The notes beneath the pieces are model-generated. The model had not been told where the DNA came from. It saw only the letters and a list, made by a program, of their open reading frames with translations, and did not search any database. Shown here piece after piece: positions 3,839-35,856 of a DNA stretch of 38,338 nt; the stretch's first letter is position 1, and each line of letters begins with the position of its first letter. Origin of the DNA: Oscillospiraceae bacterium (GTDB lineage Bacteria; Bacillota; Clostridia; Oscillospirales; Acutalibacteraceae). The stretch covers positions 1 through 38,338 of the forward strand of contig SVPW01000020.1 of assembly GCA_015065645.1 (NCBI GenBank), given 5' to 3'. The translations under genes were made by a program, and so were the position numbers.

Positions 3839-3866
3839 TGTGCTAACCACCTTTTTAACTATAATA

Positions 3867-8399: not shown

Positions 8400-8475
<76 letters not shown>

Positions 8476-9383: not shown

Positions 9384-10081
9384 ACCTCGCCCTCCTTAAT
9401 TTTATTATAAAATGAGGTTTTGAGATAATCATCAACCGAGCCATAAAAATTATCACCCTCACCGATATGCAGAATATGCTTCGCCTCACAAACTGCACGG
9501 TCAACATCATGTGAAATCATAATTATGGTTATTCCGCTATCGTTAAGCTTACGAATAAGTGAATACATCTCATTTTGAGAAACCGTATCAAGACCGTTTA
9601 CAGGCTCATCCAATAAAAGCACACGCTCTGCGGCACAAAGTGCACGACAAAGTAAAACACGTTGCTGCTGACCACCCGAAAGTTCTTTAAAGGAACGGTT
9701 TTTAAGCGAGCAAAGATCCAGCATATGAATATTGCTTTCACCCATTCTGCGCTGAGAGGCACTATATGTTAAGCCGAAAAAGCTTTTTGCCGAAAAGCCT
9801 GACATAACAACCTCATTAACACTTGCAGGGAAATCACTTTTAGTTTCACTGCGTTGAGGCAACCAACCTATATTTTTTCTTGAAAAACCGTTACATTCAA
9901 TACTTCCGCTGTACTTAACACCCGTTCCCAAAATACAGTTCATAAGGGTGGTTTTTCCTGAGCCGTTTTCACCTAAAATACAAAGATAATCCCCATCCGT
10001 AACAGAAAAATTCAGGTTTTTAAAAACACTTCGTCCCTCAAATGAGACCGAAAGCTTTTTTGCGGTTATAAGCTCACTCAT
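9380..10081 (-). CDS. znuC: Zinc ABC transporter ATPase
   Basis: 233 residues from ATG at 10081, which overlaps the znuA stop (ATGA) and follows AAAGGAGG; the GTG six bases upstream lies in that ribosome site. Walker A GENGSGKTT (37-45), ABC signature LSGGQQQR (134-141), Walker B VLLLDEP (154-160) and switch histidine in MISHD are intact. It is cytoplasmic and powers zinc import. Confidence 0.94.
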   Translation of the reverse strand: MSELITAKKLSVSFEGRSVFKNLNFSVTDGDYLCILGENGSGKTTLMNCILGTGVKYSGSIECNGFSRKNIGWLPQRSETKSDFPASVNEVVMSGFSAKSFFGLTYSASQRRMGESNIHMLDLCSLKNRSFKELSGGQQQRVLLCRALCAAERVLLLDEPVNGLDTVSQNEMYSLIRKLNDSGITIIMISHDVDRAVCEAKHILHIGEGDNFYGSVDDYLKTSFYNKIKEGEV

Positions 10082-10992: not shown

Positions 10993-11399
10993 TTTGCCGA
11001 ACATTCCTTACATTTACCGTAAAGCACGGTTTTAAGTTTATCTACAGAAAAGCCGTGTTCTTCACCGATATGCTTTGCAAGCTCGGTAATATGCTCGCAC
11101 TCAATATGAATAAGTTTACCGCAGGATACGCATTTAAGATGAAAATGATCGTGGCAACCCTCATCCGATAAATACTGATAGCAAGCACTTTCCCCCACAG
11201 CGGCATATTTTTGTACCCTGCCCTCACTAACAAGCTTTTCAAGGCAACGGTAAACCGTGGTTCTGCCAACGGCATTACCCTGCAAAGCAATTTGTTCGGT
11301 AAGCTCTTCCACCGTGATATGATTACCGTTATTTTGACGCAAAGCCTCTTCAACAATGGCACGCTGTTTCGTTTTATATCCGGATGTTGCTATTGCCAT
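10989..11399 (-). CDS. zur: Fur-family zinc regulator
   Basis: 136 residues. The winged-helix recognition helix is GRTTVYRCLEKL (45-56), the metal region is HDHFHLKCVSCGK, and two CxxC pairs (C90/C93, C130/C133) hold the structural zinc. As first gene of the zinc uptake operon with a palindromic site over its own promoter, it is almost certainly Zur, not Fur or PerR. ATG at 11399 follows GAGGTG. It should repress the operon when zinc is replete. Confidence 0.9.
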   Translation of the reverse strand: MAIATSGYKTKQRAIVEEALRQNNGNHITVEELTEQIALQGNAVGRTTVYRCLEKLVSEGRVQKYAAVGESACYQYLSDEGCHDHFHLKCVSCGKLIHIECEHITELAKHIGEEHGFSVDKLKTVLYGKCKECSAK

Positions 11400-19000: not shown

Positions 19001-20305
19001 GAAGCTAAAGTCCTTAAGGCTGAATTTGATATAGCCCTTAAAGCCTGATTTAAGCTCTGCAAGCTCACCGTTAGAGCCTACTATACCCCTTTGCCACTTA
19101 CTGCCGTTTACATCGGCATAGTAATACTGTGCACCTACGGGGTCAACATAAGAGGGCCAGCTTGAGCCCTGCTGTATACCCGGCATTGAGATATAAAGTG
19201 CAGGAGTATCGGCTTCAAATGTGGGAAGCTCAACATACATCATAAATGTATCTACACCGGGCTGCATTTTGGTATTGGGCCACATTTTGCTGTACATATG
19301 AATACTGTCTATAGCTTCACCTGTTGTACTGTCAAGCATAACGCCGTTTCCACCACCTGGGCAAGAAGCGGTATAATTGGAATTTGCGGCAATAACATCC
19401 CCGCCTGAAGGATTGGAAACAGTTACATTCCATCTGGAAGCGTGTGCTGTAACAAGCACTGCGTCCTTATTACCTCCAAGCTGATAATAGCAATCCCTTA
19501 ATTCCATAAGGGTTGAGTAGTTGTTATCATCATCGGGATAGTATAATACACCGCCGAAGATAAGGTCACCGCAATCTCCGCCGACAGCGTTGAAGCCAAA
19601 GCCCATATTTATAAGCATATAGTGCCTTGAAAAATCGGGATATACTCCATTTGCGGGATGGAACTGTGAAGAAGAAAGGTCTATACGAACATAACCCTTA
19701 AAGCCTGAGGGGAGTTTTGAAAATACAGCCAAATTGCCGTCAACCGTTGTGGTTTCGGCAAACTGCCATCTATCGTATGATTTGGAAATAAACGAATAGC
19801 TTATGGGGGCTTCACGCTTACTCCAGAAATTTACATTATCCTGATTTATGTAGAAAGAATTAAGACTAAGCGCCCAGTTGGCACCTGCCGCCGCATAATC
19901 AGGCAGCTCTACATAAAACATAACAGTATTGTTATCAAGAATAAAAGAACGGTTAATCCATTGCAGGGTAAAGTTTTCGGTAGCCTTTCCTGCAACAGGG
20001 CCTGAGAGAGAACCATCTATACTGCTTATAACACAAGCACCGTCCCAACCTGCTGCTTCTCTCCAACCGGGAGTTGTAATAGAAGTGTTCTTTACAAACT
20101 GGGTATTAAGCGTACCTGATGATGTTGCAAGCTTTGGTACTGCGTACCTGAAGGATGTGACATCGGTAACTTTCAGTGTATCGGCAGCATCATTTATTTC
20201 GCTAAGTGCAGTACCTGTAATTGCTGAAACTGCGGTTGACTGCGAAAATACCATACACGAAACAAGCACCGAAACACATAAAATAAGGGAAAGTATGCGT
20301 TTCAT
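16022..20305 (-). CDS. Giant secreted dockerin protein with metallo-beta-lactamase domain
   Basis: 1427 residues from ATG at 20305, seven bases after GGAGGT. Signal peptide 1-28. Then four beta-rich modules of about 200 residues in A-B-A-B order: A modules share FMxYVELPDYxxAxxxWxLxLxS-like and GFKGYxxIDxxxxxF patterns, B modules share HMYSKxWxNTxMQPGVDTFM and GPLVIG/GNLIIGxxYxVxxDSD. A dockerin (about 938-997) follows; its first Ca loop (DLVPNGAVDADD) is degenerate, the second (DANADGTVFNVKD) intact. The C-terminus (about 1130-1427) is a ComEC/Rec2-like metallo-beta-lactamase domain: HAHSDH (1194-1199), LGDA (Asp1316), AHHG (1341-1344). Two-metal hydrolase, substrate unknown. Confidence 0.85.
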   Translation of the reverse strand: MKRILSLILCVSVLVSCMVFSQSTAVSAITGTALSEINDAADTLKVTDVTSFRYAVPKLATSSGTLNTQFVKNTSITTPGWREAAGWDGACVISSIDGSLSGPVAGKATENFTLQWINRSFILDNNTVMFYVELPDYAAAGANWALSLNSFYINQDNVNFWSKREAPISYSFISKSYDRWQFAETTTVDGNLAVFSKLPSGFKGYVRIDLSSSQFHPANGVYPDFSRHYMLINMGFGFNAVGGDCGDLIFGGVLYYPDDDNNYSTLMELRDCYYQLGGNKDAVLVTAHASRWNVTVSNPSGGDVIAANSNYTASCPGGGNGVMLDSTTGEAIDSIHMYSKMWPNTKMQPGVDTFMMYVELPTFEADTPALYISMPGIQQGSSWPSYVDPVGAQYYYADVNGSKWQRGIVGSNGELAELKSGFKGYIKFSLKDFSFYGNSSTVVWKNFDFTKFYNVENYQFRFNHVGGANGPLVIGSFYSVIADSDSVAVTGVSATAATAEAFGATSLQAVNATLNARGATLTKDNNTVQIASDKATGFDGIYRVSGSDENAANGSLVMQSVNKEVNAGNGIMFYAELPDYKKADTDWGLCLSSVKLTQNSKSYTAKLTDRLSFSYLSLTGSEWQEGTIRNFGGTNAVLTGLPAGFKGYICIDVAKLDFNENYSFDVYSNYIINELSLGFNGVSEESGDFVFGGILYLLNRTYNLETKANIAARNYNLTKNANAMTVSTYYPRHNVTITNTTGGTVDSEATYTTIDSVGNTADKAVVLGSISGNVITDLHMYSKNWANTNMQPGVDTFMVYIEMPNYTEEGPALYISQPSFASTYIDWKNGKYSYMSIYDGEWKSAALDAEGGFADIPSGFKGYVKMDIKTFAGFDTFKTKVDVTQPYQIINLRFRYRYVGGDNGNLIIGNCYTVVEDSDAPFINVVNNRRKASTRIVYGDLVPNGAVDADDMILVRKAILGIEEVKGTALERADANADGTVFNVKDLVRMKKIAAGAVAANKWADYTNNSSLTISKWLDGGVIPYYTEGTVTETEAGDGTKIMTAVGTTAATYNQYLKALEYVGFELYTTNTIENNLFATYTNENLTVNAYYIDSNKTVRVVWEPKTYLPGLASENIYNTSVKVDTRITGMNLDASTVVEGMCFIIRLEDNSFIVFDGGYAAGNNRESKNLYDILVAQTPAGQKPVIAAWIFSHAHSDHVGNFNEFALNYHDDVVIEKFYYNFPSDKDIAANSPGIMGTTLKEYGITKVVMDEYYYDTPVIKVHTGNKFYVRNAEFEVLQTFEDFAPTILPETNFNNSTTIFRMYVGGQSTLWLGDALPAAEALMVEQFGDYLKSDVLQLAHHGIDGSLSAYQVYDPTYCLWPGAKQFYYQYNTSAHNNWLLKESPNVKQTIVTGFGTYTTKLPIDIKGDYPEHIYENTYVNPSYID

Positions 20306-20398
20306 TTGGTTTACCTCCATTTTTTATTTAAAGGGTGTTTTGACGGATACAAATATGTAATCCATGGGGTTTGCACCCGTCTGACACATCCCTTTCAA

Positions 20399-20576: not shown

Positions 20577-21071
20577 TTATATTTCAATAAAAAAATCAAA
20601 CTTAATATTCTTTTCGCCAAACCTGTACTTATCTTTAAGCTCAGGTCCGCAAGAGTTTGAACCAATACCCGAAACCTTATAATCCACCCTTAAATAGGTG
20701 TTTTGGTCACAGGTAAGCTCATCGGTATGCTCTGCTTTATACAAAACATCGGCGCTGTAATTTGAAACATTGAACTCAAATTCACCCTTTGAACCAAATT
20801 TCATTTTACCGATTGAAAGCATCTTTGTTTTATTATGATTGCCGTGCTCTTGAGGACGAACATAATTAACATATTGTTTTTCGCTATTGCTTTCATAAAG
20901 GCCAACATTAGTAAAATATGTATCCCAATAATACAACTCCTGATATGCATCAGAAACGCATGGTGTTGTATATGGATACGGTAATCCAATCAAAGTGCCG
21001 CTGCTTTCAGGACAGTATTTTACCGTTTTTTTCGATATTTTCATCTAAAACTTTTTAATTTTGTCATTCAT
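20577..21071 (-). pseudogene. Chimeric remnant: GH63-like N-terminus fused to LacZ C-terminus
   Basis: The frame read from ATG at 21044 gives 155 residues. The first about 50 (VKYCPESSGTLIGLP..., QELYYWDTYFTNVGL) match the start of trehalase/GH63-like exo-glycosidases. From about residue 48 on (VGLYESNSEKQYVNYVRPQE, then YKAEHTDELT, YLRVDYKVSGIGSNSCGPEL) it is the C-terminal strand region of GH2 beta-galactosidases. All catalytic regions are missing. An in-frame ATG at 21071 (MNDKIKKF) precedes a TAG at 21045-21047, so the original longer frame also has a nonsense codon. It lies 13 bp after GH3. A deletion joining two neighbouring glycosidase genes explains it. Confidence 0.7.
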
Positions 21072-23809: not shown

Positions 23810-23965
23810 TCAAATTTTTTTACCCTTTAAAATATCTATACATTTTTGATAGGTTAAAACCTGCCCCTTTTTGTTTATAAGCTGCATAAGATTGATTTTT
23901 TCTTCAATGTCAGCATACAACGAACGGGAAACGCCTTTTCTTATATAGCCCTTAAAATCATCCAT
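23810..23965 (-). CDS. 51-residue protein in the palindrome regulon
   Basis: ATG at 23965 nine bases after GGAGG, stop at 23810. The sequence starts MDDFKGYIRKGVSRSLYADI and continues as amphipathic helix (EEKINLMQLINKKGQVLTYQ) to a basic end (DILKGKK). No family recognised. It sits between its own terminator and that of the upstream operon, with a private promoter carrying the same palindrome as the chaperone-protease operon, so it is probably part of that regulon: a small adaptor or regulator is possible. Confidence 0.7.
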   Translation of the reverse strand: MDDFKGYIRKGVSRSLYADIEEKINLMQLINKKGQVLTYQKCIDILKGKKI

Positions 23966-23991: not shown

Positions 23992-24039
23992 ATTATATTA
24001 TACTACAATTATTTTTAATTTTTTCTGTTATAAACAGAA
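23992..24039 (-). promoter_or_regulatory. Regulon palindrome and -10 for the 51-residue gene
   Basis: Palindrome TTCTGTTATAAACAGAA at 24023-24039. On the minus strand TATAAT boxes follow at 23997-24002 (20-bp gap) and 23992-23997 (25-bp gap). No TTGACA-like -35 is present, so the palindrome probably serves an activator or an operator at the -35 position. Confidence 0.65.
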
Positions 24040-24044
24040 GTTTT

Positions 24045-24078
24045 AAAAAAAGAACTTCAATATGAAGTTCTTTTTTTG
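24045..24078. terminator. Terminator of the chaperone-protease operon
   Basis: AGAACTTCA (24051-24059) pairs with TGAAGTTCT (24063-24071), with A7/T7 flanks; it works in both directions. It lies eight bases past the stop at 24086. Confidence 0.9.
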
Positions 24079-24085
24079 TTCAGTA

Positions 24086-24484
24086 TTATTCTTCAATATC
24101 CTCGGTTTCATCCACCGAAATAACCTCAGGCTCTGCACCCATTCCATTTAAAATCTCAAGCATTTCCTGCTTTGTTTCATCGCTGATAACCCTTTCATTG
24201 GTCTGCTTTAACAAAATATACTTTGCGTAATCGGGCTCTGTCATCAACCAATCTATTATAATAAACGCATTTGCAGGCTTATAGCCACATTCGTTTATAA
24301 GAAATTCAACCGTTACATCCTCAACCTTTTCTGTGGGAAGCTCACCGGTGAAAAGCCACTTAATAAACCAACGCTTGGTTTTGGGCTGCATTCCCTTAAC
24401 ACCCTTAAATAAAATCGCTATATCGCTATCTGCATAGCCATTTTTCTTAAAGAAATTTTTAAATTCACTAAATGTAATTTTCAT
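24086..24484 (-). CDS. Acidic helical partner protein, copy 2
   Basis: 132 residues: ITFSEFKNFFKKNGYADSD start, a central KTKRWFIKWLFTGELPTEK segment and an acidic tail (VDETEDIEE). It differs from the copy at 25160-25561 at about 6 of 132 positions plus a missing final Lys. Probably all helical and cytoplasmic; no family recognised. It follows its zincin partner by two bases, so the two are translationally coupled and may act as a complex (inhibitor, adaptor or substrate receptor). Confidence 0.8.
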   Translation of the reverse strand: MKITFSEFKNFFKKNGYADSDIAILFKGVKGMQPKTKRWFIKWLFTGELPTEKVEDVTVEFLINECGYKPANAFIIIDWLMTEPDYAKYILLKQTNERVISDETKQEMLEILNGMGAEPEVISVDETEDIEE

Positions 24485-24486
24485 AA

Positions 24487-25128
24487 TTAATTAATTCCCT
24501 CCAAAGCAGCATTTGCAAATGTTGTTGCATCCGCTTCCACAGGCTGATTTGCATAACCACGCATATCTACCGATGGACTGATATAGTTTCTAAAGTTATT
24601 TGCCCATTTAGCTCTGGTTTTTTCATCAACATTCCAGAAACCGCTTTCCTTAGTAGCCTTATGCTGAACAGCGTGCCTGAGCTCATGAACGATTGTATTG
24701 ATAGCTTCTTTGATAAAGAATGCAAAGTTTTCATCATTCTTCTCAAACATAAGATATTTAATGTTAAATTCCAAGGTTTTAGTTTCAAAATTATAAAAAC
24801 CGCAAGAATTTATATGTTCTGCATTAATATCAACCTCAAGCTCAACACCGTAAAGCTTTGCCAATTCTTCAGCAAATTCGGTAAGCTCTGCAACCCTTTC
24901 TTTTTTGGGTATTTCACGAAAATGGTCAACTACATTATCGCCAAACTTTTCTTTTATAAAATTCTGTGTTTCTTTGATTTTTTCCTTATCGGTATCGCTC
25001 ATAGGAGCGCTTATTGCCTGCTGGGGCGGATTTTGAGCCGGAGCATTGCCCCATACACCAAAAAGATTACAAACCGCCCATCTTATAAACATTATTCCCG
25101 CTACGCCTAATAAAAGTGTTCCAATCAT
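24487..25128 (-). CDS. Membrane-anchored HExxH zincin, copy 2
   Basis: 213 residues, ATG at 25128 after GAGGTG. N-terminal membrane anchor (TLLLGVAGIMFIRWAV, 4-19), a Pro/Gln/Ala linker (28-42), then a domain ending in the zinc motif HELRH (148-152) and a downstream YANQPVEADATTFAN with Glu198 as likely third ligand. HExRHxxQ with a QPxExDAxxFA tail is a minimal zincin metallopeptidase layout, otherwise poorly characterised. The catalytic part is nearly identical to copy 1 (25564-26211), but the first about 40 residues are unrelated. Confidence 0.8.
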   Translation of the reverse strand: MIGTLLLGVAGIMFIRWAVCNLFGVWGNAPAQNPPQQAISAPMSDTDKEKIKETQNFIKEKFGDNVVDHFREIPKKERVAELTEFAEELAKLYGVELEVDINAEHINSCGFYNFETKTLEFNIKYLMFEKNDENFAFFIKEAINTIVHELRHAVQHKATKESGFWNVDEKTRAKWANNFRNYISPSVDMRGYANQPVEADATTFANAALEGIN

Positions 25129-25159: not shown

Positions 25160-25561
25160 TTATTTTTCTTCAATATCCTCGGTCTCGTCCACCGTAATAA
25201 CCTCAGGTTCTGCACCCATTCCATTTAAAATCTCAAGCATTTCCTGCTTTGTTTCATCGCTGATAACCCTTTCATTGGTCTGCTTTAACAAAATATACTT
25301 TGCGTAATCAGGCTCTGTCATCAACCAATCTATTATAATAAACGCATTTACCGGCTTATAGCCACATTCGTTTATTAAATATTCAACCGTTACTTCCTCA
25401 ACCTTTTCTGTGGGAAGCTCACCGGTGAAAAACCACTTAATAAGCCAGCGCTTGGTTTTGGGTTGCATTCCCTTAACACCCTTAAATAAAATCGCTATAT
25501 CGCTATCGGCGTAGCCATTTTTCTTAAAGAAATTCTTAAATTCACTAAATGTAATTTTCAT
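25160..25561 (-). CDS. Acidic helical partner protein, copy 1
   Basis: 133 residues, about 95% identical to the protein at 24086-24484; differences are conservative (F/L, D/E, F/Y, A/V, S/T). ATG at 25561 lies two bases after the zincin stop, with the ribosome site (GAGGGGG) inside the zincin gene. Function unknown; strict pairing with the zincin in both copies argues for a physical or regulatory link. Confidence 0.8.
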   Translation of the reverse strand: MKITFSEFKNFFKKNGYADSDIAILFKGVKGMQPKTKRWLIKWFFTGELPTEKVEEVTVEYLINECGYKPVNAFIIIDWLMTEPDYAKYILLKQTNERVISDETKQEMLEILNGMGAEPEVITVDETEDIEEK

Positions 25562-25563
25562 AA

Positions 25564-26211
25564 TTAATTAACCCCCTCTAAAGCAGCATTTGCGAATGTT
25601 GTTGCATCCGATTCAACCGGTTGATTTGCATAACCACGCATATCAACAGAAGGTTTGATATAATTATTAAAGTTATTTGCCCATTTTGTTCTGGTTTCTT
25701 CATCAACATTCCAGAAACCGCTTTCCTTGATAGCCTTATGTTGAACGGCATGCCTGAGCTCGTGAACGATTGTATTAATAGTTTCTTTGATAAAGAATGC
25801 AAAGTTTTCATCGTCCTTTTCAAACATAAGATATTTAATGTTAAATTCCAAGGTTTTAGTTTCAAAATTATAAAAACCGCAAGAATTCAAATGCTCCGCA
25901 TTAATATCAACATTAATTTCAACACCGTAAAGCTTTGCCAACTCTTCGGCAAATTCGGTAAGCTCTGCAACTCTTTCTTTTTTTGGCAATTCACGGAAAT
26001 GGTCAACAGCACTTTCGCCAAACTTTTCTTTTATAAGATCCTGTGTCTCTTTGATTTTTTCCTTATCTGTATCACTCATCGGTGCTGTAACAGCCTCAGG
26101 CGGTGCGTTTTTATTTTTCCTTTCCTTCCACTTTTCAATCAGTTTAATAACCGCCCATTTAATACCTTTATACAAATTATACAGTACATATCCAGCTAAT
26201 GCATTGCTCAT
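25564..26211 (-). CDS. Membrane-anchored HExxH zincin, copy 1
   Basis: 215 residues from ATG at 26211 (GAGG ribosome site; the in-frame GTG at 26220 overlaps it). The N-terminus MSNALAGYVLYNLYKGIKWAV, then a basic KLIEKWKERKNKN segment, differs fully from copy 2, but from APMSDTDKEKIKETQ onward the two match closely. The zinc motif HELRH and the YANQPVESDATTFAN tail are intact. The anchor is weaker and more basic than in copy 2, so the two proteases may sit at different membrane sites or partners. It has its own palindrome-bearing promoter. Confidence 0.8.
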   Translation of the reverse strand: MSNALAGYVLYNLYKGIKWAVIKLIEKWKERKNKNAPPEAVTAPMSDTDKEKIKETQDLIKEKFGESAVDHFRELPKKERVAELTEFAEELAKLYGVEINVDINAEHLNSCGFYNFETKTLEFNIKYLMFEKDDENFAFFIKETINTIVHELRHAVQHKAIKESGFWNVDEETRTKWANNFNNYIKPSVDMRGYANQPVESDATTFANAALEGVN

Positions 26212-26256
26212 TTTTGCCACCTCATAATTTTTTGTTTTTTGTTTTTCTTTATCCTT

Positions 26257-26299
26257 ATTATAATTTATATAGGAATAAAATGTTCTGTTTAAAACAGAA
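26257..26299 (-). promoter_or_regulatory. Regulon palindrome and -10 for zincin genes
   Basis: Palindrome TTCTGTTTAAAACAGAA at 26283-26299, 20-bp gap, then TATAAT (26257-26262) on the minus strand. It gives the zincin modules a promoter separate from the upstream ATPase genes. No -35 consensus. Confidence 0.7.
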
Positions 26300-26313
26300 G
26301 TTTTTAAAAAACT

Positions 26314-28218
26314 TTACCGCCTTATAAGCTGGTCACGTTCAAATCTTTCAACCTGAATTGCCAAGGAATTTATCCTTTCCCTTAAAAGCTTATAAACAGC
26401 TATATCATAAGGATGCACAAGGGATTTATTGTTATCCTGCAAAAGCTCACTTTTACGTAGCTTAAAGTTATGCTCAGCAAGCTCCTCCGGCTCCATAGCA
26501 GCGGTGCTTTTGCGTTTCAAACGCTCATATTCCTCAAGATTTTCCATACAGTAATCTTCTGTACGGAAAAGAACATCATCCGCTGTGGGAGCAAAGCCTT
26601 TTCTCAACATTCTGCAATAGCTTATTGCAATGCTATCAACATTTTCCTCACCGTCACCATATACAGTACAGGTTTCTGCCGATTTAATCAAAGCCTTTTT
26701 CCACATATCCCCTGTAATATAATCCTCATTAATAAGTGAACGCAATGCCACATTAACAATTTTAATTATATCCGAACCTATTACAATACGGGGCTTTCCG
26801 TTTTTAACAAACTTAGAATTTATAACCTCTAAAAACAGTTTTTGAGAGAAACAATCCTCTGAAAAACAATTAATTTCATCAACTGATTTTTCACGTGACT
26901 TTGCAATATTAGCCTTAGCACGCTGCAATGAAACCTTAAAAATATCGGCACATTCATTAGCGGTTGGAAGATAAACCGCATATAGTGCATCAAATCTTCC
27001 GCTTCTGAAAAATTCCTTAGGAAGACCGCCAATATTATTTGCGGTTGCAAAAATGAAGCACGGCTTTTGGTTATCCTGCATCCAACCAAGCATATAACCA
27101 AACATTCTTTTGAATGAAGATGAATCGCCGTCATTACCGCTTCCGCTAAAGCCTTTTTCGATTTCATCTATCCAAAGTACGCAGGGTGACATTGTTTCAG
27201 CGGTTTTTAAAGCAACCCTCATTTTACGCTCAGATTCACCCTGGTATTTATCCATAAGGCTACCCATATCCATTTTAAGAAGCGGCAAATTCAAAACCTG
27301 CGCTGTAAATTTTGCGGCTTCACTTTTTCCGCAACCTGGGATTCCGCAAAGCAAAACACCCTTAGGAGGCGGTGTGCCGGTTTTTCTTTTCAGTTTATTT
27401 GAATTATTAAGTGCATCATCCTGAGCCTCAAGCCATGCCTTAAACTTTTTCATACCGCCGATATTACCGGTTATATTACACTGCTCAAGAATTCCACCCT
27501 GCATTTTTTGCTTTTTGCGATCCCTGATGATTTTTTCAACAGCCTTATCATTCTCAAGAGAAACAGTGGCGTTGATTCTTTGCATGGTTTTTGATATTTC
27601 CTCTGTTGAGAAACCAAGAAAAGCAGTTGATATAGCCGAAAGGTAATCAGGATTTTCTGTTAAACAGCTTGCCGCCCCCGATTCCTTTAAAACAATATTT
27701 CGTATTTCCTCTTCTTCAGGAAGATCAATCTCCACAAACTCGGTATAGGTTTGCAAAAAAGGTGAAATTTGAACATCGGAAGAATAGAGCAAAACAGCAC
27801 TGTTTTGCAAAATTTCGTATTTAGGATGCGACTCATCCTCATGGTCCACAACATATTTTTCAAGCTTTGAAAAAATGGCATTTAATTCATTTCTACCATT
27901 AACATCATCAAAACCCGCAATCTTATATACCCAAAGATGCGGATAATCAATCATCTCATACTCCGGCAGTGAATTAAATTTAATATTTTTGGCATCTTTA
28001 AGTCTTTTCCCTGCCTTCATCCCCTCAACCAAGGGTCTGCCTTCGTACTGTCTTCCACCGGAAGAACCGCATACAGGCACAACCAATGGAGTATCAGTAT
28101 TTTCAATAATACTTTTGATTAAAATATCAGAATCGCTTTTTATGTATATAATAGGTATTCCGCCAAGCAGTGCCGAACGGCACTGCTTGAGAATTTTACT
28201 GCTTACGCTCTCTGCCAT
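26314..28218 (-). CDS. Ycf46-like AAA+ ATPase
   Basis: 634 residues. The N-terminal about 240 residues resemble the degenerate N-half of Ycf46-type ATPases (LLGGIPIIYIKSDSD). The AAA+ core follows: Walker A GIPGCGKS (292-299), pore-loop-like MDKYQGESERKMR, Walker B VLWIDE (347-352; CVLWIDEIEKGF is very Ycf46-like), sensor 1 in ATANN (391-395) and arginine finger in FRSGRFD (404-410). A helical C-terminus with repeated E/K-rich segments (about 540-634) could bind partners. Probably a cytoplasmic unfoldase/remodeller. ATG at 28218 follows GAGGG, ten bases after the Hsp70-like gene. Confidence 0.85.
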   Translation of the reverse strand: MAESVSSKILKQCRSALLGGIPIIYIKSDSDILIKSIIENTDTPLVVPVCGSSGGRQYEGRPLVEGMKAGKRLKDAKNIKFNSLPEYEMIDYPHLWVYKIAGFDDVNGRNELNAIFSKLEKYVVDHEDESHPKYEILQNSAVLLYSSDVQISPFLQTYTEFVEIDLPEEEEIRNIVLKESGAASCLTENPDYLSAISTAFLGFSTEEISKTMQRINATVSLENDKAVEKIIRDRKKQKMQGGILEQCNITGNIGGMKKFKAWLEAQDDALNNSNKLKRKTGTPPPKGVLLCGIPGCGKSEAAKFTAQVLNLPLLKMDMGSLMDKYQGESERKMRVALKTAETMSPCVLWIDEIEKGFSGSGNDGDSSSFKRMFGYMLGWMQDNQKPCFIFATANNIGGLPKEFFRSGRFDALYAVYLPTANECADIFKVSLQRAKANIAKSREKSVDEINCFSEDCFSQKLFLEVINSKFVKNGKPRIVIGSDIIKIVNVALRSLINEDYITGDMWKKALIKSAETCTVYGDGEENVDSIAISYCRMLRKGFAPTADDVLFRTEDYCMENLEEYERLKRKSTAAMEPEELAEHNFKLRKSELLQDNNKSLVHPYDIAVYKLLRERINSLAIQVERFERDQLIRR

Positions 28219-28228
28219 TTTTCATCCC

Positions 28229-30304
28229 TCACAAATCAAAACGTTTAAGCATAACAATTTCAAACGCTCTGTCTACCGTACTTGTGATTATCTCTTTATA
28301 AGCATTTGACTGAGATTTAAAATCTTCCACAAAAGGAACCATCATTTCTGCCTTATTTTTATTCATTTCATTTTCTATTGAATTTTTCACAGATTGACGA
28401 ATTCTTCTGCTTCTGGGCTTTTTCAAATCGGTATCCTTTAAAGAGGAACCAATCGTGTTAGCCGCAAACCACGCAACAAGAAGTGAAACACCAAAGGTTT
28501 CAGGAATCAAAATAACACCTATAACATAGGCTACAATCTTTGTAACCATAGCAGTTATCTTCTTGGGCAGTGATGAAAGGTCAATACCGGAAATCATTTT
28601 ATCAACATCAATACCCTTATAGTTTATCGAACCGGACTGTAATGACTGCCATACATCATTGGGGATTGCAACCTCACGGGCAACCTCCTCTGAATAAAGA
28701 TTTTTAACCTCTTCATTAACAGCCTTTACTATTTTTTGTGAAAGATCATTTTTCCACTTTTTAATTTCACTCTCACACATTTTTTGGGTAATCGTTCCAA
28801 TTTCATTATTATCAACACGGGTTTGTATGTGCTGTAACAAGGTTTCAACAGTAAGGGTATCACCCGAAGCATCTGCCCAAAGCGTTGTTTCTTCAACAAC
28901 AAGCTTTTTAACATTTTCAAATACAATGTCAGAAAGTTTGCCCTGCAAGGTTTCAATACTGCAGGATTTCAATCCCTCAATCTTTTTCACAACGTTATCG
29001 CAACAACGCTCCACATTGTAATCGGAAACGGCTATCCAAGCAAGTCCGTTTGATACTGTATGAGAGGGATTATCCTCAATAATTATCTGCTTATCGGGGA
29101 AAACCTCTTTACAAATTTCAGAGATATAGCCCATTTTACTTGCGCCACCGGTAAGAACCACGGTTTCAAGTGTGCAAGCTCTTTCCTCAGATACATCGGA
29201 TCCTGTATAATGCAAATATGTACTGCTTTCTATAATGCGCTTAGCTTCCTCAAAAAACTCACGGCACAAATCCTGCCAGCTGCCTGACTTTGGTGTTTTA
29301 CTGTCACAGGTGATATTAATTGCATTTTTCTTGGTAACATCGGTCATATACTCATCGTCAACGGTGATAGGAGTTTTAAGTCTCTTATTATCCTCATCCC
29401 GTTCAAAGGTACAGATAATATCGTGACCGTAAGGACCGAAAATACCGTTATAATATTCCTCTTTGGCGGATCTTAAATTATCCTCAATATCTGCAAATGA
29501 GGTTGCCTTAAAGCCAAATTCACCAAACATTTCGGTAGCCTGTCTATAGGCGTTTATTGTCATTTCCCTTTCAATAGCAGATGCGCCCAATGTCCAAGAA
29601 AATTCCATAAGCTTTCTGCCCAAAAGCATGTATGTAAAGTCCGCAGTTGAAGAACCAAAGTCAAAAACAGCGGCACCGTTAAGTGCAGAAACCTTACCCT
29701 TACCGTTTTCAATGGTGCTGAACATTGCAGCTCTGGATTCAGGAATAATTATAACATCATGAACACCAACGGCATTTTTGATTAAAGATGCATATTCATT
29801 CTTTGCTTCATCACTTGTCCAATCCTGAGTGGTAGGGCATCCGATAAGCAAATCAACATTGTTTCTTTCAGCCTCACTTAAATCGCCTACATTATACTTA
29901 AAAGCATTTTCAAGCAAAGCAAAAACATAACACGCCATTAACATTCCGTGTGTTATGCCGTTTTCCTTTGCAGCATCAGAATTGCCGTATTGTGTATCAA
30001 AAAGCTTTGGAGGCGCCTTAAAATAACAGAATTTTTCACCATCCACAACATAGGCAGGCAGCTTATTACCTATCATTATTTCTCCCAAGCTTTTTAAAAG
30101 CTCATAACCGGGACGGTTATTGCCCTTTAAAATAGCCATCTGGTCATTTGTAAGAATAAGCTGTGAAGAAATAATCTGGTCCTTGGTATTTTGAGCAACC
30201 AAACGCCTTACTTCATATCTCATATTTTGAATATCGGCAACCACCGGACAAGCAAGTGATACATCGCAATGCCCAAAATCTATTCCAATTACTTTTCTGT
30301 TCAT
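28229..30304 (-). CDS. Hsp70-like ATPase with C-terminal membrane segments
   Basis: 691 residues. The actin/Hsp70 ATPase fold is clear: phosphate-1 VIGIDFGHCDVSLA (5-18), phosphate-2 VFDFGSSTADF (213-223) and adenosine motif VVLTGGASKMGYI (382-394). There is no DnaK-type substrate domain; instead a long helical region (430-575), a hydrophobic stretch (about 583-618: VAYVIGVILIPETFGVSLLVAWFAANTIG) and a basic helical tail. It is therefore probably membrane-attached with the ATPase inside. The annotation as plain DnaK would be wrong. ATG at 30304 follows GGGGG; 10 bp before the AAA+ gene. Confidence 0.82.
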   Translation of the reverse strand: MNRKVIGIDFGHCDVSLACPVVADIQNMRYEVRRLVAQNTKDQIISSQLILTNDQMAILKGNNRPGYELLKSLGEIMIGNKLPAYVVDGEKFCYFKAPPKLFDTQYGNSDAAKENGITHGMLMACYVFALLENAFKYNVGDLSEAERNNVDLLIGCPTTQDWTSDEAKNEYASLIKNAVGVHDVIIIPESRAAMFSTIENGKGKVSALNGAAVFDFGSSTADFTYMLLGRKLMEFSWTLGASAIEREMTINAYRQATEMFGEFGFKATSFADIEDNLRSAKEEYYNGIFGPYGHDIICTFERDEDNKRLKTPITVDDEYMTDVTKKNAINITCDSKTPKSGSWQDLCREFFEEAKRIIESSTYLHYTGSDVSEERACTLETVVLTGGASKMGYISEICKEVFPDKQIIIEDNPSHTVSNGLAWIAVSDYNVERCCDNVVKKIEGLKSCSIETLQGKLSDIVFENVKKLVVEETTLWADASGDTLTVETLLQHIQTRVDNNEIGTITQKMCESEIKKWKNDLSQKIVKAVNEEVKNLYSEEVAREVAIPNDVWQSLQSGSINYKGIDVDKMISGIDLSSLPKKITAMVTKIVAYVIGVILIPETFGVSLLVAWFAANTIGSSLKDTDLKKPRSRRIRQSVKNSIENEMNKNKAEMMVPFVEDFKSQSNAYKEIITSTVDRAFEIVMLKRFDL

Positions 30305-30334
30305 TTAATTATACCCCCGAATCCGATACATTTT

Positions 30335-31264
30335 TTATTCTATATCGAATTTTTTTAATATTTCTGTATTGATTTTTTCCATAGCACCAATGTAAAAACC
30401 TTTAATTTCAGCCGCAGTCATGGTGCTTATGGGATTATTTTGGTTTTTATAGTCAAATGCCGATACCCACTGTGGTGTAAGCAATCGCTTTAAAACCTCA
30501 TAAAGCAGTTTACCTTTTTCAATGTTTTTACGCATTGCCGCAGCTTTTTCTTCATACATTTCAAGTAATTTTTGAAGAGATAAAATATCATCAAATTCTG
30601 CATTTCGTTTAGAAGCCTTTGACTCCAAAATATCCAAAAACTCAGCCGCACTTAATATTTGAGTGCAATCGCTTGGATTTATCGGCAAATCATTATTAAG
30701 CTTTTCTAAAAGCAGCTTTGCATCATTAAAGGCTTGCGGTAAATCCTTTATTGTTGCCACCGACTGACATTCGTTTTTAATAAATGCACAAACATTGCTT
30801 TTATTGCACAAAATTTCTTTCTTTTCAGCCTGAGATGCCGCTTCATAGCTTTCAAAAAGCTTATTCAGATAAACATTAAGGAAAAACACATAATTGTTAT
30901 ATCCCATAATTGCGGTGGTTTCAGGATCATCATCCGAAGATATTTCTTCGGCAAATTTATTTATCTTTTTTAAATAGTCGGCTATTTTTCCCTGACGGTA
31001 ATAAGCCGAAATAACAATATCTGCCAAATCGTTTTCAGCCTGTAATTTAACTGTTTCAGCCCACTTAAAAAAACAATCTTTAACTAATTCCTGTGCGGCT
31101 GTTTCACCTGAAAAGCTTAAAAACGAATCAATTTGCTTTATTCTATGCTTAACCATTCTTACAGATATAACATTTCGTGTGCCGGGATTGGTTGGCGCAA
31201 TATGAGTTTTAACGCCATCTGTCAGATTGGTCAAAAAATCTTTTATATCCTCTTTTATATCCAT
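30335..31264 (-). CDS. All-helical hypothetical protein of the operon
   Basis: 309 residues, no signal peptide or membrane helix. It appears to be long amphipathic helices throughout (ELVKDCFFKWAETVKLQAEND, KLLEMYEEKAAAMRKNIEKG). Cysteines are scattered. No family recognised. It lies 30 bp upstream of the Hsp70-like gene; co-chaperone or scaffold is possible from context only. Confidence 0.75.
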   Translation of the reverse strand: MDIKEDIKDFLTNLTDGVKTHIAPTNPGTRNVISVRMVKHRIKQIDSFLSFSGETAAQELVKDCFFKWAETVKLQAENDLADIVISAYYRQGKIADYLKKINKFAEEISSDDDPETTAIMGYNNYVFFLNVYLNKLFESYEAASQAEKKEILCNKSNVCAFIKNECQSVATIKDLPQAFNDAKLLLEKLNNDLPINPSDCTQILSAAEFLDILESKASKRNAEFDDILSLQKLLEMYEEKAAAMRKNIEKGKLLYEVLKRLLTPQWVSAFDYKNQNNPISTMTAAEIKGFYIGAMEKINTEILKKFDIE

Positions 31265-31282
31265 TAAAATACCCCATTTATC

Positions 31283-32668
31283 TCATATTAAAGTAAAAAT
31301 TCCCTCTTTGGGTTTTATAGTAAAGTTTTTGCCAGCACCGTTAAAATATACCTTTTCAAAACCCTTTTCGTCTATTAATGCCAAAGATTTTTGGGTATCA
31401 GATAATGCATATTGCATATAAGCATCCTTTGATTTTGGCTGTTTTAAGGAGCTGCCGAAGTATTTATCCAAAGATACAACCGCCGCTTCCGCTTTTCCGC
31501 CCTTTTCAAAGATAACCTTTCCATCTTGGGTTAATATTACATACCCATTATCAGTAACCTTAACCTCAACCACAGGTTTATTGATCATATCCAGCTTTAG
31601 CTTTGTCATATAATCCTCTGCCGGTTTATAAAAGTTACTGATTATCCTGCCGTTTTGAACAAGAAGAAATCCTTGCTCTTTGGAACCTGCAGAAAAACAA
31701 GCAATATTTTCAAAATTAAGAACCCACTCCTGCGAATCCTTTGAAAGTACCTTAATATCAGAAACTGCATTTCTCCGTTTAATAAGGCACAAATCATCAC
31801 TAAGGCTGATACCGGGCAGAATTTTAACAATTTTACCGGATACAACATTGCAATAACATGACTCACCGGGTTTTAAGGATAATGTTTGCACAAGTGATTC
31901 ATCTTCATCGCTGTACAACTCAATATTAACGGTGTAATAGCTGTTTGCACAAGCACCTGCTTCAATTTTCACGGTGGATATTTCACCGCCGTTTTCCAAA
32001 GCATTACCGCCGTAATACCAAAACTTATACGGCGTTTTGCTTGCCTTTAGCGGAGCGTTCTTTTCATAAGGAAACAAAGAAATTTCGTTATTAATTCCCT
32101 CTTCTTTAACCTGCTCTATACGATTTTCCTTAAAGGATTGTTTGGTTGCATCAACCTCTGACAATTCACAAATTGCCAGTAAAACGAGAACTTTTAGCAA
32201 GCTTTCCGGTGTTTTATCAAGAGATACGGATTTTGAAATAAATGCGATTTTTTCATCTATACGAGCCACTTCCAGCTCCTCATTTATTTCACTCATCACC
32301 TTACCGAGCTTCTCATTGATAGAAGCCCATTTTTCCTTATAATCGTATGTTCTGTCAATGCCAACAACCTCATCGGCCTTTTGCTCTAAAAAGAAATTTA
32401 AACCTTCTTTAACACTTTTGCATTTTTGGGGAAAGGTACGGCATTTAATTATGCCGTACCAAAATTCCTTACTTATATATTCAGCCGGTTTTTTAATCTT
32501 TTCACCGTCAAAGTCTACCGCAAACTGTAAAACAAGCGGCACACAATGAACAAGAGCAAAGGTTTCAAATGCCGGTAATTGAGCATAAACATCTAAAGGA
32601 GAAAAGTTTTTTTGCAAATCCACAAAATTCAAAATTGATACATCGTTAAGCTTTAATATTTTCCTCAT
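31283..32668 (-). CDS. Helical/beta two-part hypothetical protein
   Basis: 461 residues. The N-half (1-200) is helical. The C-half (about 215-461) is made of short beta strands with turn motifs (VQTLSLKPGESCYCNVVSG, GFLLVQNGRII, GYVILTQDGKVIFEKGGK, SLALIDEKGFEKVYF), like a propeller or beta-sandwich sensor/binding region. No membrane helix. No family recognised. Spacing to its neighbours is 29 and 18 bp, within one operon. Confidence 0.75.
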   Translation of the reverse strand: MRKILKLNDVSILNFVDLQKNFSPLDVYAQLPAFETFALVHCVPLVLQFAVDFDGEKIKKPAEYISKEFWYGIIKCRTFPQKCKSVKEGLNFFLEQKADEVVGIDRTYDYKEKWASINEKLGKVMSEINEELEVARIDEKIAFISKSVSLDKTPESLLKVLVLLAICELSEVDATKQSFKENRIEQVKEEGINNEISLFPYEKNAPLKASKTPYKFWYYGGNALENGGEISTVKIEAGACANSYYTVNIELYSDEDESLVQTLSLKPGESCYCNVVSGKIVKILPGISLSDDLCLIKRRNAVSDIKVLSKDSQEWVLNFENIACFSAGSKEQGFLLVQNGRIISNFYKPAEDYMTKLKLDMINKPVVEVKVTDNGYVILTQDGKVIFEKGGKAEAAVVSLDKYFGSSLKQPKSKDAYMQYALSDTQKSLALIDEKGFEKVYFNGAGKNFTIKPKEGIFTLI

Positions 32669-32697
32669 TTAAAAGTATACTCCGTTTCTGTATTTAT

Positions 32698-33828
32698 TTA
32701 GGTTGCAGGAACCTCTGCAGGCTGCTCAACAGCAGTCTTTTTACCCTTGCTAAAGAAGCCGCCGATAGCCTTGAAAATGTTTTTGCAAACTTCAACAATT
32801 TTTGGAATAACCTTATCCTTGATAAACAATACCAAAGCCTTAATTCCCTTAAAAACTGCTTTTCCTAATGCAAAAACGCATTTTACAAATTTTTCGCTAA
32901 CATCGGACCAGAAGCTCAATCCCTTTGTTAAAAGCTTAAACAAGCCAAATATCATAACCATAATTGCAGGGATTACCAAAAGTGCAGTAAACATTCCGGG
33001 AATAATCAAAAGTCCCAATGCGCCCAAAGCCACGATTGTTTGTATAATAACTATTGCACCAAGTATGAAGAGTAAGATGGATGCAATATCTTCTGCCAAG
33101 CTGCCGTTACCAACAGCTTCTGTTATACGCATTTCTTCCACACCTGCACAAACAAGAGTTGTGAGCTGAGGAGCTGTAATATCAACAGGAACACTATCAA
33201 TAGTACCGTTTTTAACCTGTGTATAAGCAAGCATTGCGGCAATAGCTCTTAAATCGCAATCCTTATCGCCAATTTCAATAATCATTTCAGCGGCTTCCTC
33301 AGGAGAGCTTGAAGCATCCAATTCGCTTGCGTGCTCCATAAGACCGTTAAACATTATACCGGAATTCTTAATAGCCTCTCTTGCCTGCTTCTTAATTTCT
33401 CTTTCCTTTGCGGGGGTTGCTTCCTCTTCGGTAATGGGGGTAATAAGTTCCATTTCCTCAAGAAGCTTTTTGCGGTCAACAGTGGGGTCATTAAGGGCTA
33501 TACTTGCGGCAGAAACCGCAGCAGTTATTTTAAGCCAATAATTGCAACGCTCCACACAGCTCTTGCCTTCATCCATCTTCTTCTGGAACTTTTTGATATA
33601 ACCGTCAAGGTTTTCTCTTGCTTCCTTATAGCTTGCATCAAAATTCTTAACGCTTTCTATAATAGAATCTGCAATTACGAGTCCCTGAGCTATGGTCTTA
33701 TCATCAAGGTTCTCAACATAAAGCCTTGCCATAACATCACGGGTGCTTTCGCCATCGGCGATACCGTTCATAATTTCCTGTGCCTGTTCCATTAATGCCT
33801 TGCTCTGTTCGTTAGTAAAGTTTTTCAT
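32698..33828 (-). CDS. Membrane protein, first gene of chaperone-protease operon
   Basis: 376 residues from ATG at 33828 (GGAGG upstream; the TTG at 33843 is upstream of that site). A long charged helical cytoplasmic part (1-245) includes a tryptic-rich EEATPAKEREIKKQ linker. Two to three membrane helices follow (about 248-300: IASILLFILGAIVII, LGLLIIPGMFTALLVI, IMVMIFGLFKLL). The tail is amphipathic and basic (IKALVLFIKDKVIPKIVEVCKNIF) and ends in a Pro/Glu stretch. No family recognised. As leading gene with membrane helices it probably anchors the complex. Confidence 0.78.
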   Translation of the reverse strand: MKNFTNEQSKALMEQAQEIMNGIADGESTRDVMARLYVENLDDKTIAQGLVIADSIIESVKNFDASYKEARENLDGYIKKFQKKMDEGKSCVERCNYWLKITAAVSAASIALNDPTVDRKKLLEEMELITPITEEEATPAKEREIKKQAREAIKNSGIMFNGLMEHASELDASSSPEEAAEMIIEIGDKDCDLRAIAAMLAYTQVKNGTIDSVPVDITAPQLTTLVCAGVEEMRITEAVGNGSLAEDIASILLFILGAIVIIQTIVALGALGLLIIPGMFTALLVIPAIMVMIFGLFKLLTKGLSFWSDVSEKFVKCVFALGKAVFKGIKALVLFIKDKVIPKIVEVCKNIFKAIGGFFSKGKKTAVEQPAEVPAT

Positions 33829-33871: not shown

Positions 33872-33919
33872 ATTATATCTTATCATACTTTTTTAAAAAG
33901 TTTTCTGTTTGAAACAGAA
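33872..33919 (-). promoter_or_regulatory. Regulon palindrome and -10, operon promoter P2
   Basis: Palindrome TTCTGTTTGAAACAGAA (33903-33919), then -10 candidates TAAGAT (33877-33882, 20-bp gap) and TATAAT (33872-33877, 25-bp gap). The TSS would be about 30-40 bp before the start codon at 33828. Confidence 0.7.
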
Positions 33920-33974
33920 GTTTTGAAGATATTTTTTTATTTCAAGGGAGCAACATTTTGCCTCGGCTGATTGT

Positions 33975-34018
33975 ATTATAAACCGTACCTATTTAAAAAT
34001 GTTCTGTTGCCAACGGAA
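33975..34018 (-). promoter_or_regulatory. Regulon palindrome and -10, operon promoter P1
   Basis: Palindrome TTCTGTTGCCAACGGAA (34002-34018, one mismatch), 21-bp gap, TATAAT (33975-33980). About 100 bp upstream of P2, so the operon has tandem promoters with the same operator. Confidence 0.6.
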
Positions 34019-34034
34019 GTTTTAAATAAAAAAC

Positions 34035-34568
34035 TTAATCATATATATTTTCAATTTCGGGATATCCGTTCAAGCGATATTCCTCTAATACCTCATAAAC
34101 ATCAACCGGGTCATAAACCCTTAAATTTATAAGTGCCAAAATTATTTGGTCACGCTTATCCTTTGGGTCAAAGCTGTTTGAACCTCTATGCATCAAATCA
34201 ACCGCATCGTCCTCATTAAGCTTTAAAGCTATAACCAATTTAAGCAGTGTTTTTTTCTTTAGCTTTATCAATCCCCAACGCAATGAGCTCCATGTTGATT
34301 TATCAATAAACGCATATTTATAAAAAGCCGCTTCATTCAGTTCCCCGTTCTTTCTGTAAAAATCACGGTTATTTAATTTATTTATATGCTCAACAATTAC
34401 ATCATATAATGATTTTTCTTTTTCTGAAAGGCTTAATCTCTCCCTTATACCTGCACTTATTGCCGGATTGGAAATTTTTGCGGTTGTAACATTTAAGCTA
34501 AAACCGCCGATTTGTGACGAACGCTTACTTATATAATCCTCAACCGCCGTTAAAAGAAATTTTTTCAT
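34035..34568 (-). CDS. Noncanonical HTH regulator next to the operon
   Basis: 177 residues from ATG at 34568 (AAAGGG upstream); an in-frame ATG at 34649 lacks a ribosome site. The central part has an XRE-like fold of the kind in which a short helical pair (NEAAFYKYAFIDKSTWSSLRWG) precedes KKKTLLKLVIALKLNEDDAVDLMHRGS, and ends with YDPVDVYEVLEEYRLNGYPEI. I have seen this order in small clostridial regulatory proteins, but the family name is uncertain. Its stop lies 16 bp before the first palindrome, so it is the natural candidate to bind TTCTGTT-N3-AACAGAA. It is not itself preceded by that motif. Confidence 0.65.
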   Translation of the reverse strand: MKKFLLTAVEDYISKRSSQIGGFSLNVTTAKISNPAISAGIRERLSLSEKEKSLYDVIVEHINKLNNRDFYRKNGELNEAAFYKYAFIDKSTWSSLRWGLIKLKKKTLLKLVIALKLNEDDAVDLMHRGSNSFDPKDKRDQIILALINLRVYDPVDVYEVLEEYRLNGYPEIENIYD

Positions 34569-34669
34569 TTTTTGAATATCCCTTTCATATAACGAATAAT
34601 TATGAGTTTTAATTCGAGAAAAGCAATAAATTAAATATAAATATTCCATTTAATCAATATATATGCATA

Positions 34670-34833: not shown

Positions 34834-35856
34834 TTATTGGTAAATTGAGGTTATACCCAAATATTCTTCCAAACAAAGACCGCTGTTATATACCGCCGTT
34901 GCAATTTCAATACCAAGGTATCTGATATGCCAAGGCTCATACATATATCCTGTTACAGCTTCCTTTCCTTGCGGATAGCGAATGATAAAGCCGTATTTAT
35001 AGCAGTTTTCAGCAAGCCAATTTGCCTCCGGAGAGCCTGCAAAGCTTGCATTTGCCTTATTTATATCAAAGGCTAATCCCGTTTGATGTTCGGAATGACC
35101 GGGTCTTGCAGAATAACGGTCGGCTGCGGCCACACCATCTCTTTTAACATAGTTATTATAAAGGGTTTTCTGGGTTAAATAGCTTCTGAATCCCGATCTG
35201 ACAAAAAGATTTAGCCCTTGCTCCTTTGCTGCGGCAAACATTTCTTGCAAAGCGGCATTTGCAACGGGGTCAACACCCGGATTATATGTGCTTGGTAAGG
35301 GATAGGTTTTATTTGCAATTAAAATGCCGTTAATATATGTAATTTCAGGCTCTATCGGTGCAATATAAGGGGTAACAGTAACCGAAACATTTGCAAAAGC
35401 ATTTGGATTATCTGCAGAACTAACGGTAACTGTGCAGTTTCCAACACCCACACCCGTTATCCTGCCGTATTTATTTACTGTTGCAATAGCCGTATTATCG
35501 CTTGTCCAAACCTCACCCTTATTTGTTGCATTTGTAGGATGCATTGTAACTATTGGCATATCGTTAGAACCCTGCATAACGGTAACCGAATATTTACTCA
35601 AGGTAATACTCTCAACCCCAATATGCACAATCTTAGGAGTTTCAATTTCCACAGCCGGTTCGCTTTCCACAGCCGGTTCGCTTTCCACAGCCGGCTCGCT
35701 TTCCACAGCCGGCTCCTCTTCTTCCACAATAACATTAGAGTTAATTGCAGGTTTTGATTCTAATGTCTTTTCCTCTTTTTCATTACAGCCGACAATAGTA
35801 AATATAATTAAAAGATTAAGCGCTATTGCTGCCAATCTGTAAACCAAATTTTTCAT
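34834..35856 (-). CDS. VanY-type D,D-carboxypeptidase lipoprotein
   Basis: 340 residues. Signal peptide with lipobox (FTIVGC), then a linker of four PAVESE-type repeats (about 49-72), a Big2 immunoglobulin-like domain (SITLSKYSVTVMQGS...GVGNCTVTVSSAD) and a VanY/LdcB catalytic domain. Zinc motifs: SGFRSYLTQ, RPGHSEHQTGLAFDI (SxHxxGxAxD) and EPWHIRY. It trims the terminal D-Ala (or acts as L,D-carboxypeptidase) of peptidoglycan stem peptides outside the cell. No vancomycin genes are nearby, so it is a housekeeping cell-wall enzyme. Own promoter and terminator. Confidence 0.93.
   Translation of the reverse strand: MKNLVYRLAAIALNLLIIFTIVGCNEKEEKTLESKPAINSNVIVEEEEPAVESEPAVESEPAVESEPAVEIETPKIVHIGVESITLSKYSVTVMQGSNDMPIVTMHPTNATNKGEVWTSDNTAIATVNKYGRITGVGVGNCTVTVSSADNPNAFANVSVTVTPYIAPIEPEITYINGILIANKTYPLPSTYNPGVDPVANAALQEMFAAAKEQGLNLFVRSGFRSYLTQKTLYNNYVKRDGVAAADRYSARPGHSEHQTGLAFDINKANASFAGSPEANWLAENCYKYGFIIRYPQGKEAVTGYMYEPWHIRYLGIEIATAVYNSGLCLEEYLGITSIYQ
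35646..35717. repeat. 18-bp tandem repeat coding PAVESE linker
   Basis: Four units of TTTCCACAGCCGGTTCGC, the last two with small changes. It is in frame with the VanY-type gene and codes the repeated PAVESE linker. Copy number is likely to vary between strains through slippage. Confidence 0.85.

Follow-up and report, generated by a model that had tools for sequence, protein, structure and literature searches.

A contig of 38,338 nucleotides from an Oscillospiraceae bacterium (SVPW01000020.1 of assembly GCA_015065645.1; the whole stretch is hereafter called the window) encodes, within one regulated operon, an Hsp70-type ATPase that lacks the usual substrate-binding domain, joined to a AAA+ motor and a predicted zinc protease. 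Eight protein families make up the set: a regulator (HTHL), a membrane protein (MEMB), the proteins P461 and P309, the Hsp70-type ATPase (HSP70), the AAA+ ATPase, a zincin (ZINC) and its small acidic partner (PART), the last two of which occur twice in the window. Gene order, kept in other genomes, and a group of dedicated operators identify the eight families as one unit. We read this unit tentatively, and with a little less than even confidence, as an accessory, nucleoside triphosphatase (NTPase)-gated and membrane-associated protease system with a role in conflict or stress. If correct, this reading would supply a function for several undescribed protein families of gut Clostridia and Bacteroidota.

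Gene order and distribution

The first gene of the set is HTHL (204 amino acids (aa), 34035..34649), which, like every other gene and operator described for the set, lies on the reverse strand. It is followed by MEMB (376 aa, 32698..33828), P461 (461 aa, 31283..32668), P309 (309 aa, 30335..31264), the Hsp70-type ATPase (691 aa, 28229..30304), the AAA+ ATPase (634 aa, 26314..28218), zincin A (218 aa, 25564..26220), partner A (133 aa, 25160..25561), zincin B (213 aa, 24487..25128) and partner B (132 aa, 24086..24484). P461 and P309 are recognized as open reading frames (ORFs) belonging to kept families, and MEMB may start at its ATG or, giving 381 aa, at an upstream TTG (33843 in the ORF list). 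From MEMB to the AAA+ gene, neighbours are separated by 10 to 30 nucleotides (nt); a 93-nt gap precedes zincin A, and 2 nt lie between each zincin and its partner. A hairpin followed by a T run (24051..24071), terminator-like when read by eye and unlisted by a scan of the sequence, stands 3' of partner B. The original prediction, made on the window sequence before the present analysis, had described the genes from MEMB to partner B as closely spaced on a single strand and as one unit, and both descriptions hold; it had missed the regulator, a 51-aa ORF beyond partner B, and the fact that the two zincin-partner pairs are a tandem duplicate.

A single zincin scan, covering a collection of 84,980 species, returned 66 loci; the presence of the zincin in them is by selection, that of the other seven families is not. 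With families assigned by iterated profiles on unfiltered ORFs, the window and six further loci (L014 to L019) have the order HTHL-MEMB-P461-P309-HSP70-AAA+-ZINC-PART, with every gene on the same strand. A seventh, L020, has all seven families that its contig covers; L021 and L022 hold all eight in shuffled orders; and L023, from genome G875, has HSP70, AAA+, ZINC and PART with other genes interspersed. The regulator family is kept, heading the set, in L014 to L019, L021 and L022. Identity of the AAA+ ATPase to that of the window is 48 to 56% in L014 to L020, 36% in L021 and 43% in L022. Since L016 and L020 are closely related (83% AAA+ identity), as are L017, L018 and L019 (98 to 99%), the evidence for a conserved order comes from about five separate lineages.

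The presence of the set is very patchy. A single-sequence search with the Hsp70-type protein recovered only its own genome, both among 394 genomes of the order (E up to 1e-10) and among 398 of the phylum (E up to 1e-5), as did a three-row profile on the 394; a 16-row profile reached three of 300 family genomes, namely its own, G875 and, more weakly, G1045. Three genomes of the same genus lack it, and the zincin occurs in five of 150 family genomes, the source genome included.

Genes downstream of the set offer a hint, drawn from two or three lineages and without a control, that it may lie in conflict islands. A methyltransferase, an RNA ligase and an HD-kinase form a trio there in L017 to L019, which are one lineage, and in L021 (L017:15444-18188; L021:15327-18061). 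In L017 to L019 there is also a gene whose vWA-like match stays below the Pfam cut-off; L021 and L023 have EcsC and HD_4 genes in common, and L021 has in addition an ADP-ribosylglycohydrolase gene. None of these seven neighbour genes was detected at E 1e-5 in the window, L014, L015, L016, L020 or L022, some of which end soon after the set.

The ATPases and the front-end proteins

In a Pfam scan of the ten operon proteins the single match above a cut-off was AAA (PF00004, 2.4e-25) in the 634-aa protein, which confirms the AAA+ ATPase of the original prediction; in NCBIfam no operon protein passed any curated cut-off. Pfam, motifs and profile agree on a VCP/Cdc48-like ATPase, whose best solved relatives are VCP-type ATPases matched in two stretches. 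All 14 family members, including that of the window, where it lies in the C-terminal half, have one Walker A motif and none in the first 250 residues, and 13 share an [RK]-x-G-R-F motif, the exception (L079) being cut by a contig end. The Pfam scan gave this ORF no peptidase match. For its earlier label, Ycf46-like, which would call for a degenerate N-terminal and an active C-terminal AAA domain, no model of that name was among the library results.

The 691-aa protein had no match at E up to 0.1 in a single-sequence Pfam scan, and it is by profile and predicted structure that residues 1 to about 430 are recognized as an Hsp70 nucleotide-binding domain (NBD). The best profile match stops where the NBD ends. 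The remainder is helical and holds a hydrophobic segment at residues 583 to 601 (hydropathy 2.11). No substrate-binding β-domain is present: in the model, in which residues 559-565 and 605-622 fall under a pLDDT of 50, no strand beyond residue 409 is as long as three residues. The Hsp70-like ATPase with membrane segments that had been predicted thus keeps its NBD and one such segment and lacks the β-domain of a canonical chaperone. Nor did any of the ten operon proteins match DnaJ or GrpE co-chaperones at E up to 0.1.

Hydropathy, taken as a 19-residue mean with a threshold of 1.5, supports membrane segments in MEMB, the Hsp70-type protein and zincin B. Because this threshold also flags P461 (1.68, 1.58) and the AAA+ ATPase (1.66), peaks below 1.7 mean little; those of MEMB, in its C-terminal third, rise to 2.75. 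MEMB has no credible relative in the PDB and P461 none in the PDB or Pfam, while the Pfam matches of P309 are all weak and below cut-off.

The zincin and its partner

The zincin keeps an HExxH motif, and zincin A has a conserved Q-x-[VI]-E as well; in an alignment of 37 zincins H153, E154, H157 and E203 are invariant, E203 being the probable third, acidic zinc ligand. On the HExxH motif, this acidic residue and the zincin fold, the protein is classed as a zinc metallopeptidase of predicted activity. Fold comparison places the predicted structure nearest to Spartan and IrrE. At E up to 0.05, Pfam SprT-like matches 19 of the 37 (best 1e-4) and Pfam M78, the IrrE family, four (best 0.0027). DUF6782 matches 29 of the 37 relatives at the same limit; the window zincins, at 15.3 and 15.2, lie below its gathering cut-off of 27, and a Nocardioides zincin (L026) exceeds it with 31.0. 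A literature search found no paper on DUF6782.

Pairs A and B arose as a tandem duplicate, with nucleotide identities of 0.816 and 0.955 over aligned codons. The two zincins differ at the N-terminus. Zincin B has a hydrophobic segment at residues 2 to 20 (hydropathy 1.94), as expected from the original prediction of two membrane-anchored zincins; zincin A, for which the anchor was not upheld, has no hydropathy peak and only a predicted helix at residues 2 to 35. The partner, recognized by profile and by its linkage, is a dedicated small, helical, acidic protein: in all 41 detected pairs it is encoded on the same strand as the zincin, in 40 of them within 150 nt.

A dedicated operator

A 20-nt palindromic motif occurs twice before MEMB, once before zincin A and once before the 51-aa ORF, which extends to further sites the matching promoters noted in the original prediction. 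The motif AACTTCYGTTNNNAACAGAA was derived from the stretches preceding MEMB and zincin A, and exact matches stand at 34002..34021 (AACTTCCGTTGGCAACAGAA), at 33903..33922, where a TATAAT follows upstream of MEMB, at 26283..26302 upstream of zincin A, and at 24023..24042. The last copy is independent of the derivation. Behind it lies the 51-aa ORF (23810..23965), with a TATAAT and a GGAGG of its own and possibly a small component of the set; tblastn over loci L014 to L083 found it no relative better than E 0.30. Across the window the close form AACTTCTGTTTNAAACAGAA gave six matches with up to three mismatches, against 0.07 expected, two pairs among the six being both strands of one palindrome. 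Throughout the assembly (1.86 Mb, 85.7% complete) exact copies number four, all at this set; when up to two mismatches are allowed, the count is eight places, among them the opposite strand of a site described here, versus one for the reversed control.

The core AAAACTTCTG is found without mismatch 97 to 113 nt before MEMB in the window, L014 and L017 to L019, and with one mismatch at 66 nt in L016; between 0.7 and 1.5% of stretches in the same locus match equally well. In L015 and L022, with two mismatches, the core is weak, and in L021, with three, it is unsupported before MEMB. Beyond PART, inspection by eye shows a small ORF preceded by a motif of this kind in L017 to L019 and, weakly, in L015. 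The position of HTHL suggests that it is the protein that binds the operator. A homologue found by iterated search (L072:130-1170) combines Macro and Cro/C1 helix-turn-helix (HTH) domains; in the HTHL of the window, Pfam detected no HTH domain at E up to 0.1.

Sister systems with other front ends

The same zincin-partner pair is reused with several NTPase front ends. Besides the window type, the 66 loci include pairs with Hsp70 and HerA/DUF87, with SPFH and HerA, with dynamin and HerA, or with HerA alone, and the families of the pair span Clostridia, Bacteroidota, Treponema and Armatimonadetes. Hsp70 with HerA/DUF87 is seen in five Bacteroidota loci that also encode a glycine-zipper-like membrane protein and in two more, L040 and L043, whose Hsp70 is DnaK-like. 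In L016 and L020, dynamin-type genes lie directly 3' of a window-type set. Pfam supports HerA (1.7e-5 and 1.2e-5) and dynamin (1.9e-24 and 7.7e-17); the glycine zipper (6.5e-4) is below cut-off. Partner and ATPase go together: 35 loci have both, six the partner only, five the ATPase only and 20 neither (Fisher p 1.9e-7, relatedness of loci uncorrected). Among those with neither are the ten Nocardioides loci, and six Clostridia loci whose stand-alone zincins share a gene context.

Stand-alone zincins in a conserved context, with no partner detected, are found in L057, L058, L061, L063, L067 and L074; the neighbours of L058 look housekeeping-like by eye.

In other sets the protease itself appears to be exchanged. 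Downstream of the window-type set in L015 lies a second set (L015:12096-20648) of an Hsp70, a 601-aa protein and HerA, followed by a papain-fold toxin domain (PF15644, 5.2e-14) that, judged by gene order, occupies the position of the protease. Papain-like toxins are described as a known class among polymorphic toxins in the part of PMC3482391 that treats them. Genome G1045 has a set of Hsp70, a 337-aa protein and HerA with a 350-aa protein that is cysteine-protease-like by eye and has no Pfam match.

At L087:3131-4183 a 350-aa protein stands behind an Hsp70-HerA set; it has an acidic repeat, a cysteine-protease-like motif by eye and no Pfam match.

Comparison with known systems

That no named system has this composition had already been supposed, and PADLOC, NCBIfam, Pfam and the literature searched yielded none. 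The combination of Hsp70-type ATPase, AAA+ ATPase and zincin in a membrane-linked arrangement likewise stands, on gene order and domains. IetAS resembles the set in that a AAA+ ATPase adjoins a protease, and the best PADLOC match of the set's AAA+ ATPase is IetA (2.8e-19). However, its NCBIfam IteA score is 57.4 against a cut-off of 510, and the set's protease is a zincin, with no subtilisin match among the operon proteins, whereas IetS, of the anti-phage system IetAS, is a subtilisin; the Hsp70-type ATPase, MEMB and PART come in addition.

Of the described systems, those closest in logic are the ATPase exchange of CoCoNuT extensions and the chaperone-based conflict systems, as treated in passages of PMC11090510, PMC7159879 and PMC8195603; those passages mention neither the zincin-partner pair nor this operon. 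The type III-A extensions of CoCoNuT are described as carrying exchangeable ATPases (SpoVK-type AAA+ with one active ATPase domain, EssC, or VirB4/HerA-type) beside a small helical protein and Hsp70-like parts (PMC11090510), an arrangement like that of the sets considered here. The window differs: neither the ten proteins of the operon nor ten further ORFs of the window matched McrC, a coiled-coil nuclease or HEPN, and the description of the type III-A extension contains no zincin (PMC11090510). NTP-dependent ternary and GTPase-Hsp70 conflict systems also pair a chaperone-type NTPase with proteases or effectors, but in the sections of PMC7159879 devoted to them they consist of MoxR-vWA, or of a GTPase with tubulin/Hsp70, and so are of another composition.

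Proposed mechanism and alternatives

In the mechanism that we propose, a platform beneath the membrane, built from the Hsp70-type ATPase and MEMB, would detect disturbances, for instance an entering phage or envelope damage. The AAA+ ring may be the motor that switches on, or feeds, a membrane-tethered zincin, and the small partner would either keep the protease inactive or connect it to this motor. Dosage would be under the control of the HTH regulator together with the four operators of the set, and duplication of the pair would yield two proteases that differ at the N-terminus. Should the partner prove to be an inhibitor or an adaptor, the pair would constitute a small testable switch. On defence versus envelope maintenance the evidence points both ways: the patchy presence of the set and the papain-toxin exchange speak for conflict, the SPFH sister loci among housekeeping-like genes for maintenance. 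In a broader version, which we regard as possible and hold with less assurance, the window is one form of an unnamed family of NTPase-gated membrane proteases, in which a core of zincin and helical partner, served by a swappable front end, would confer inducible immunity by membrane proteolysis.

Several observations weigh against an NTPase-gated conflict or stress protease. Binding among the proteins of the set is itself a proposal. The Hsp70-type protein had no match in phage records and one with E better than 1 in plasmids, the zincin had none in plasmids and four in viral contigs, and a motif-level integrase or relaxase was found in only five of the 66 loci. At E 1e-5 no RNA-repair neighbour was found in the window, L014, L015, L016, L020, L022 or L023, some of these stretches stopping shortly beyond the set. 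No PADLOC model covers the set: the AAA+ ATPase drew matches of IetA type, the C-terminal part of the Hsp70-type protein a weak LeoBC match, and DruG matched once, at 0.025. The original prediction had itself held that homologues mostly in unrelated contexts would speak against it, and on this point the outcome is mixed. The full eight-gene set is kept together elsewhere, while the pair also occurs without this Hsp70 and AAA+ ATPase, beside HerA, SPFH or dynamin, and Hsp70 homologues of a Calothrix plasmid and of G1045 have no zincin or partner detected alongside. Some SPFH-type sister loci, finally, lie amid genes that read by eye as housekeeping (dxs, his), which suits envelope upkeep.

The likeliest of the alternatives, though we consider it unlikely, is maintenance and not defence: a split FtsH analogue in which the AAA+ ring and a tethered zincin clear damaged membrane proteins selected by the Hsp70-type ATPase. 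Like FtsH, the set would bring a AAA+ motor and a zinc protease with an N-terminal hydrophobic segment to the membrane, but it would do so from two separate genes, and the AAA+ ORF scores 58.1 with FtsH_fam against a cut-off of 600. The SPFH proteins of sister loci also recall the phage shock protein (PSP) and band-7 (ydjFGHI-type) operons, which PMC11237479, in the portion concerned with band-7 and PspA, describes as sub-membrane stress assemblies; the window set, by contrast, has no SPFH or PspA match, and the words 'Hsp70' and 'HerA' have zero occurrences in that article's main text. Envelope quality control fits poorly with so patchy a distribution, including absence from three genomes of the same genus, and with the finding that, in a neighbouring set, a papain-fold toxin stands where the protease would be.

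Rather improbable is a regulatory protease, whereby the zincin, in the manner of IrrE, ImmA or CapP, would cleave HTHL or the partner on a signal, the output being the set's own operators or another module. IrrE/PprI, CapP and Spartan/SprT do provide the nearest zincin folds; the set differs from them in its dedicated partner and, for zincin B, in its hydrophobic N-terminus.

To an export machine, whose ATPase, as in VirB4/EssC-type secretion, would carry the protease or some other protein through the membrane to act as a toxin, we assign a still smaller probability. HerA/FtsK-type ATPases do replace the AAA+ ATPase in sister loci, in two SPFH loci the zincin domain comes after long acidic N-terminal stretches, and the Nocardioides zincin of L026 (L026:9198-10549), whose N-terminal part looks helical, follows a 100-aa WXG-like helical protein, by eye suggestive of type VII export. 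Opposed to this, four Nocardioides zincins have no Pfam WXG100 match, and neither the ten proteins of the operon nor ten further ORFs scanned gave a secretion-system match. Chance neighbourhood, which could draw on nothing beyond weak single-sequence annotation, is dismissed by the same gene order in six further genomes at 48 to 55% AAA+ identity and by the locus-specific operators.

Other features of the window

The first 8.5 kb of the window contain a tyrosine integrase with an internal HTH (1606-2988), a Zeta-toxin-like gene (3272-3850) and a tRNA-Met (8400-8475), and may be an integrated element. Metal ABC transporter genes (ABC-3, ATPase, ZnuA) follow at 8568-11004 on the reverse strand. 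A 1432-aa protein (16022-20320) combines metallo-beta-lactamase-type and dockerin domains, and a 155-aa ORF (20577-21044), whose sole match is to the end of the profile for the beta-galactosidase small chain, is a possible gene remnant. At 35646-35712, an 18-bp tandem repeat of 3.7 copies gives a 340-aa protein, carboxypeptidase-like with its family assigned by eye, an acidic repeat close to its N-terminus.

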